In this document: positions 15,664 to 25,235 of the stretch, piece by piece | Position numbering within the stretch: position 1 is the stretch's first letter | Layout of the letters: each line of letters starts with the position of its first letter | DNA from: Sandaracinaceae bacterium | GTDB taxonomy: Bacteria; Myxococcota_A; Polyangia; Polyangiales; Sandaracinaceae | DNA length: 64,000 nt | Reading direction: 5' to 3' | NCBI GenBank assembly: GCA_019694315.1 | Contig: JAIBCE010000003.1 | Location: forward strand, 1 to 64,000 | Notes under the pieces: generated by a model | What the model was told of the DNA's origin: nothing | The model's database searches: none | The model's input: the letters and a program-made list of their open reading frames with translations, nothing else | Program-made: the position numbers and the translations under genes

Positions 15664-16587
15664 TCACACGCGTTCGACGAAGTGAACCGCGAGATCGGCT
15701 GCGTGTGCGGGGCGCTTGGGCCACCGGACGTGCGGGTGATCGAGGCCCGACGACCACGTGCAGCGCTCGATCGCGTGCGATCCGATCTTGGACAGCAGAT
15801 GCTCCGTGGCAGCGGAGGGCGCCCAGTCGTCGCCCTCGAGACCCACGGCGAGCACGGGGCTCTCGCACGCGCGGAGGTGCGCTTCGAGGTCCGCGCCCTC
15901 GACCTTCCAGACGCCGTGGCGTGTGAGGTGCGACCACTCCTTCATCAGTGTCCTGGCCTCGCGTCCGCCGAAGCCGAGGCGACCGTCGTGGTAGCCGAGC
16001 ACCCGACCCGCCACGGGAAAGATCTGGCTCGCCACGAAGAGCTGGAGACGCATTCGCCCATCCCACGAGCGGAGGTAGGGCGTGCCGCTCGCGACGAGGA
16101 TCACGGCGTCCACGACACGTGAGCGCCCAGCGTCCCCCGCACGTGAGCGCCCAGCGTCCCCCGCACGTGAGCGCCCAGCGTCCCCCGCGCGTGAGCGCCC
16201 CGCGTCCCCCGCGCGTGAGCGCCCCGCGTCCATGAGCGCGATCGTGCCGCCGATCGAGTGACCCAGCCACGCGAAGCGCGACGCGCGAGGCAACGCGGTC
16301 CGCGCCGCCGTGCGCGCAGCGGCCAGATGATCGAGCAGCGCCGCATAGCCCCAGTCGCGACCGCGGCCCGGACGGATCGGGCTCGTCCCGAGGCCAGGCC
16401 ACTCCACCAGCGCCGCATGCGCCCCGCGCGCCACGAGCGCCGCCGCGAGCTCCTCGTACCAGCTCGCGCGCATCCCGAGCGCAGGGGCCACAGCGACGAT
16501 GGGTGCGTCCTCACGCGGCGCCTCGGCCACGCGCAGCGTCTGCGCGCCACCCAGGCCCTCGAAGGTCACATCGCGCAGCGCCGCCAT
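15664..16587 (-). CDS. alpha/beta hydrolase with an internal repeat expansion
   Basis: A 307-residue hydrolase-fold protein. The nucleophile elbow is GHSIGG (about residue 112). A likely catalytic Asp lies in LEGDDWAPS and the His in GLDHPHVRW near the end. Family members cleave esters or similar bonds; the substrate is unknown. Directly after the elbow helix the chain holds five copies of an Ala/Gly/Asp/Arg/Ser octapeptide (units of the type GDAGRSRA), encoded by a 24-bp tandem repeat, before the fold resumes at VVDAVILVASG. This adds roughly 30 residues at a place where relatives have a short turn, so folding or activity may be affected. ATG at 16587 follows a GAGG ribosome site; a GTG lies one codon earlier. 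The next gene on the strand upstream is the ParE-like subunit. Confidence 0.72.
   Translation of the reverse strand: MAALRDVTFEGLGGAQTLRVAEAPREDAPIVAVAPALGMRASWYEELAAALVARGAHAALVEWPGLGTSPIRPGRGRDWGYAALLDHLAAARTAARTALPRASRFAWLGHSIGGTIALMDAGRSRAGDAGRSRAGDAGRSRAGDAGRSRAGDAGRSRVVDAVILVASGTPYLRSWDGRMRLQLFVASQIFPVAGRVLGYHDGRLGFGGREARTLMKEWSHLTRHGVWKVEGADLEAHLRACESPVLAVGLEGDDWAPSAATEHLLSKIGSHAIERCTWSSGLDHPHVRWPKRPAHAADLAVHFVERV
16117..16230 (-). repeat. 24-bp tandem repeat inside the alpha/beta hydrolase gene
   Basis: Copies at 16117-16140, 16141-16164 and 16165-16188 are identical. A fourth (16189-16212) differs at two positions, and a fifth, partial copy runs to about 16230. The unit is in frame and encodes an octapeptide of Ala, Gly, Asp, Arg and Ser. 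Confidence 0.96.
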
Positions 16588-16612
16588 CACACCTCATCAC
16601 TTCGTCACGCGA

Positions 16613-18625
<2,013 letters not shown>

Positions 18626-25166: not shown

Positions 25167-25184
25167 TTCGCGTCAGCGCCCCCC

Positions 25185-25235
25185 CTCAGCGGCCCCTCTC
25201 AGCGACCCCTCTCAGCGACCCCTCTCAGCGACCCA
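25185..25235. repeat. 13-bp tandem repeat at the thiD 3' boundary
   Basis: Almost four head-to-tail copies of a 13-bp unit (CTCAGCGACCCCT; the first has one G for A) at 25185, 25198, 25211 and 25224. The last copy contains the stop codon of the leftward gene, so most of the array lies in the short convergent spacer. Confidence 0.95.

Follow-up and report, generated by a model that had tools for sequence, protein, structure and literature searches.

A probable in-frame expansion of a 24-bp minisatellite within a predicted alpha/beta hydrolase of a Sandaracinaceae bacterium

Introduction

Tandem repeats that change the length of a protein without shifting its reading frame are known from Escherichia coli, where ahpC carries a TCT repeat whose change from 4 to 5 copies alters the activity of the enzyme (PMC3477136). 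The array described here resembles this repeat and the 15-bp repeat of E. coli tolA in consisting of near-identical in-frame units for which slippage or recombination is the likely source; it differs in that copy-number change and an accompanying phenotype were shown for the two E. coli genes, whereas our array is known from one assembly (PMC3477136).

A second group of relevant systems is provided by the alpha/beta hydrolases themselves. In this fold, the nucleophile lies between strand beta5 and the next helix, the acid follows beta7, and the histidine follows beta8, while the lid sites reported in the same source lie after beta6, beta4, beta1, and beta8, and before beta2 (PMC11878206). Lids and caps, like the insert studied here, are inserted into the alpha/beta-hydrolase core; the present insert, however, is repetitive and lies between the nucleophile helix and beta6, away from those five reported sites (PMC11878206). 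The solved structures that best match the profile of the family are monoglyceride-lipase-like hydrolases (PDB 5zun and 3pe6; E 5e-11, profile positions 38-150), a match that takes in only about the N-terminal half and in which the aligned part contains no repeat. Among the papers listed for myxobacterial minisatellites and for Sandaracinus tandem repeats, none appeared to deal with this topic.

Here, we analyze an array of 24-bp units found in the window, by which we mean the whole 64-kb stretch of DNA under study. An in-frame minisatellite is an event of an already known kind; among the arrays that we checked in this genome, the present one is unusual in lying within a catalytic domain. From comparisons at the sequence level we consider it likely that the array represents a tolerated expansion in a surface loop of a working alpha/beta hydrolase. 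If so, the locus shows cleanly how slippage can lengthen a catalytic domain at a defined site, and the ancestral length, the seed, and much of the history of the units can still be read.

Results and discussion

A predicted hydrolase gene behind a topoisomerase gene

The array lies in one of two neighboring genes with the following features:

15664-16590, minus strand: alpha/beta hydrolase gene, 308 amino acids, GTG start (open reading frame, frame unbroken; three Pfam matches)
16613-18565, minus strand: gyrB/parE-type topoisomerase subunit B gene, directly upstream of the hydrolase gene (open reading frame; NCBIfam NF004189, 793.2 bits, cut-off 740)
16246-16263, minus strand: nucleophile elbow GHSIGG of the hydrolase, residues 110-115, with S112 (alignment and unit listing)

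Membership of the alpha/beta hydrolase superfamily is indicated by three Pfam families, all scoring above their own curated cut-offs (Hydrolase_4, 34.3 bits; Abhydrolase_1, 27.6 bits; Abhydrolase_6, 27.7 bits). The Hydrolase_4 and Abhydrolase_1 matches stop at residues 119-120, just ahead of the array, while the Abhydrolase_6 match (residues 41-275) runs across it. A GxSxG nucleophile motif is accompanied by conserved acid and histidine positions: an alignment of 11 sequences has 23 invariant columns, which include G110, H111, S112, G114, and G115 as well as D254 and H287. We take G110, S112, G114, D254, and H287 to be the likely catalytic positions and, because the triad positions are kept and the frame is open, the enzyme would be expected to be folded and active. 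The hydrolase gene starts 22 bp past the end of the gyrB/parE-type gene, a spacing which suggests that the two are probably co-transcribed. Searches of phage records gave no match, and plasmid records gave three, at 20-29% identity.

Five full units in the coding frame

Within the hydrolase gene, the array and its parts are as follows:

16111-16230, minus strand: five 24-bp units, residues 121-160, four of DAGRSRAG and one of DAGRSRVV (TRF and in-frame unit listing)
16207-16230, 16183-16206, 16159-16182, and 16135-16158, minus strand: DAGRSRAG units 1 to 4, in that order
16135-16230, minus strand: the four extra units, 32 residues, without counterpart in the relatives examined
16111-16134, minus strand: fifth unit, DAGRSRVV, taken as ancestral and running into strand beta6 (VVDAVILVASG; alignment with 14 relatives)

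TRF reports a period of 24, 4.8 copies, 97% matches, and a score of 204 at 16116-16231. The array is not a product of chance, since the best score obtained from 60 order-3 Markov copies of the window was 78 (median 61). Its units are arranged in tandem, are nearly identical, have a period that is a multiple of three, and lie in the coding frame, all of which are properties of an intragenic in-frame minisatellite. The 24-bp in-frame repeat of the original prediction is therefore real; its count of four and a half units gives way to five full ones, and the low edge of the array moves to 16111, 6 bp beyond the boundary first assigned.

Units 1 and 2 are identical to each other, as are units 3 and 4. 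Between the pairs there are two differences, both synonymous and at third codon positions, a number too small to prove selection on the protein. Three changes, all of them in the final two codons, set unit 5 apart from units 3 and 4. This ordered structure bears on whether the number of units could be an artifact of a short-read assembler. Tandem repeats have been described among the causes of assembly errors (PMC6868369), and the source assembly is fragmented into 630 contigs, so that the array could be mis-sized. At only 120 bp, however, with two ordered unit types and a variant last unit, the array can be spanned by ordinary reads, and we regard a miscount of this origin as scarcely credible.

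Hardly more plausible is a role of the array at the level of DNA, as a protein-binding array or a mobile repeat whose position in a gene is incidental. The palindrome CACGTG, which might be read in this way, is found in three of the five units (units 3, 4, and 5) but is absent from units 1 and 2, and such a reading is at odds with the synonymous character of the differences among the four extra units within the gene. Outside the array, the pattern of the unit has no match within 2 mismatches in its own genome and one at 3 mismatches; we rejected a DNA-level element on the lack of dispersed copies within 2 mismatches.

A short connection in relatives

The relatives used for comparison were supplied by a genome search in which they reached E values of about 1e-21, although two contig scans for relatives of the hydrolase had returned none. 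Fourteen of them, from 14 genomes, were aligned together with the window protein, and the connection was measured from the final Gly of GHSxGG (or of the corresponding motif) to the Ala that ends strand beta6. It spans 18-22 residues in all 14 relatives, most commonly 20, against 51 in the window protein. A second test made use of the 22 genomes with separate matches flanking the array on each side. All 22 lack 29-31 residues exactly at the array, the window protein having 31 extra residues relative to 18 genomes, 30 relative to two, and 29 relative to two. The two sets have 10 genomes in common and comprise 26 in all; L007, L009, L010, L011, L015, and L016, with weak or partial matches, stand outside the 14, while G043, G066, G290, and G373, with a one-sided match, stand outside the 22, G043 and G066 belonging to the 14. 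At locus L007, which comes from the same-genus genome, a short connection passes through the site, as judged by eye.

The difference in length from relatives that is characteristic of a minisatellite is thus seen in 14/14 aligned and 22/22 two-sided genomes, and the claim of the original prediction that relatives have a short turn where the array sits holds in both sets. A conserved, non-repetitive insert of equal length, which would have spoken against the original prediction, was looked for in the 26 genomes and found in none. An alignment with homologues had been suggested as a way to the ancestral length, and it provides one: subtracting the 32 residues of four units from 51 leaves 19, within the 18-22 residues of relatives and one below their commonest length. 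For this reason one unit is taken as the ancestral state, and by the same comparison the insertion is derived. No close ortholog was found (best segment, residues 18-118, 47% identity; whole-protein identity 31-36%), which limits how precisely the array can be dated and the original unit sequence reconstructed.

Position of the array in the fold

As the nucleophile, the acid, and the histidine are positioned after beta5, beta7, and beta8, fold topology and the alignment together imply that the connection leaving the nucleophile helix would join the N-terminal end of beta6, opposite the active site. The array had been placed in the buried core of the enzyme, which is probably wrong, for by this topology the insert would lie on the side opposite the active site. 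It had also been placed immediately after the nucleophile elbow; the first unit begins nearby, at residue 121, yet this is nine residues past S112, in or at the end of the following helix rather than at the elbow itself. Given that starting point, the array would replace the final part of the nucleophile helix and the turn that follows. AlphaFold2, run on the window protein without an alignment, gave a model of low confidence (mean pLDDT 34.4), and the placement draws on topology and alignment.

The alignment sets the insert between the nucleophile helix and beta6, and because the lid sites reported in the source cited above exclude this connection, the insert corresponds to none of them. The array bears on how far the nucleophile helix-beta6 connection tolerates insertion.

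A possible route to the present array

When the array is collapsed to the DAGRSRVV unit, giving an 84-bp site, only one run of at least 5 bp is repeated at a distance of 24, namely the 7-mer TGGACGC at the unit boundary. This direct repeat would be a suitable seed for slippage; elsewhere in the window, 41 of 63,829 places show a 7-mer repeated at 24 bp.

We propose that the ancestral gene carried a single DAGRSRVV copy between the nucleophile helix and beta6, with the TGGACGC repeat 24 bp apart, and that the 24-bp stretch was duplicated via strand slippage or unequal recombination. Three changes would then have turned the final VV of the new copy into AG, after which the AG-type copy would have been amplified to four, and two synonymous changes together with further copying could have produced the A-A-B-B pattern across the four units. 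One element of this order of events sits less easily with the rest, as the three VV to AG changes are clustered in six bases, which does not fit pure slippage combined with scattered substitution. The 32 added residues, rich in Ala, Gly, and Arg, would most likely make up a loop at the surface, flexible or helical, on the side opposite the active site. Owing to a period divisible by three and an exposed site, their insertion may well have been tolerated, and the expansion could have been nearly neutral.

Activity, decay, or tuning of the enzyme

Simple inactivation of the enzyme, though possible, is argued against by the kept triad and the unbroken frame. A more gradual process could also be envisaged, in which the expansion harms the enzyme and the gene is heading for loss, its frame kept by the 24-bp steps and its function covered by other hydrolases. 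Redundancy of this kind is plausible, since, at E up to 0.001, the genome contains 52 matches to Abhydrolase_6 (the hydrolase included). The gene also seems dispensable in the lineage, given that an order-wide search at E 1e-8 gave no match in the same-genus genome or in eight other same-family genomes listed, some of whose assemblies are incomplete; at E 0.001 the same-genus genome gave one weak match (3.3e-5). The addition itself, at 32 residues, is large. Against an impending loss stand the unbroken frame, the kept triad and other invariant positions, and the fact that the four extra units differ from one another only synonymously, and on balance we hold such a loss to be unlikely.

Copy number might, on the other hand, serve as a tuning knob, with slippage altering the length of the loop and, through it, how active or stable the enzyme is or how it binds its partners. 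With a period divisible by three and units that are 97% alike, copy number may be unstable, and precedents exist in the in-frame repeats of E. coli tolA and ahpC (PMC3477136). Yet the array has been seen in one assembly, none of the relatives examined carries it, and the site that we assign to it faces away from the active site; we therefore consider tuning very improbable. There is likewise only a slim chance that the array is a length-variable non-lid module whose unit count determines activity, stability, or the binding of partners, and that minisatellite expansion is a general source of protein change in this lineage. A tolerated expansion in a working enzyme is the reading that we prefer over these.

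Arrays elsewhere in the genome

The filter used for counting arrays set minima of 9 for the period, 2.8 for the copy number, and 85% for matches, and a maximum of 3% for indels. The sample of the own genome (G000) amounted to 524 kb, made up of the 64-kb window and 40 contig pieces (L037-L056 and L117-L136), and contained 51 arrays, of which 41 have a period divisible by three. The same filter gave 7 arrays in 400 kb of the same-genus genome, 5 in 400 kb of one same-order genome, and 48, or about 41 per Mb, in the 1.17 Mb sampled from three same-family genomes; an order-3 simulation produced 1 passing array in 3,840 kb. The excess in the own genome corresponds to p = 4e-7 against the same-genus genome and p = 3e-5 against the three family genomes. 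If the seven arrays located no more than 200 bp from the end of a piece are set aside, leaving 44, the values become p = 1e-5 and 9e-4, respectively. The window alone, with 3 arrays in 64 kb (about 47 per Mb), has no more than the family genomes. Because sampling was non-random, with many short contigs in the own-genome sample and, in that of the same-genus genome, the initial 20 kb of contigs longer than 20 kb, the excess is a lead rather than a result. Should this array load hold genome-wide, the lineage could serve studies of repeat-driven protein evolution.

A Pfam scan covered 30 proteins with 31 of the 51 arrays, that is, the hydrolase and 29 chosen proteins carrying 30 arrays; outside the scan were ten arrays with periods that are multiples of three but with less coding-like frames (two of them borderline) and ten with other periods. 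The array falls inside a matched enzyme domain in one of the 30 array-bearing proteins, the hydrolase, in agreement with the unusual place ascribed to it at the outset. In two others, described below, the array matches a repeat-like model; for the rest, either there is no Pfam match or the array falls beyond the best matched stretches. Domain placement is a visual judgement based on the best stretch per family, and does not take in additional stretches that a family may have, such as those in L121:3148-4008, L129, and L131:1275-2942. The tolA repeat of E. coli is not known to lie inside an enzyme domain.

Several other arrays of this genome are described here in their own right. Two genes of one contig piece (L047, 284-441 and 1285-1406) have DUF4351 matches and long EGRQ-type repeats; the Yae1_N model that the array matches in both proteins is repeat-like and was not counted as an enzyme domain. 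In the window, a 27-bp repeat at 1814-1897 (3.1 copies, 100% identity) multiplies an in-frame ATG and the peptide MSRRTQRLA at the N-terminal end of an open reading frame with a matrixin (Peptidase_M10) match. At 25173-25234 of the window, just past an apparent gene end as judged by eye, is a 13-bp repeat, TCAGCGACCCCTC, with 4.8 copies and a period that is not a multiple of three; a second 13-bp array of the own genome (L055, 2411-2636) has 17.4 copies at 97%. In E. coli mutL, the gain or loss of a 6-bp repeat unit has been reported to raise the mutation rate (PMC3477136), and the mutL gene of the present genome (L136, 9479-11425) has a 9-bp repeat of 4.1 copies between the conserved domains of MutL.
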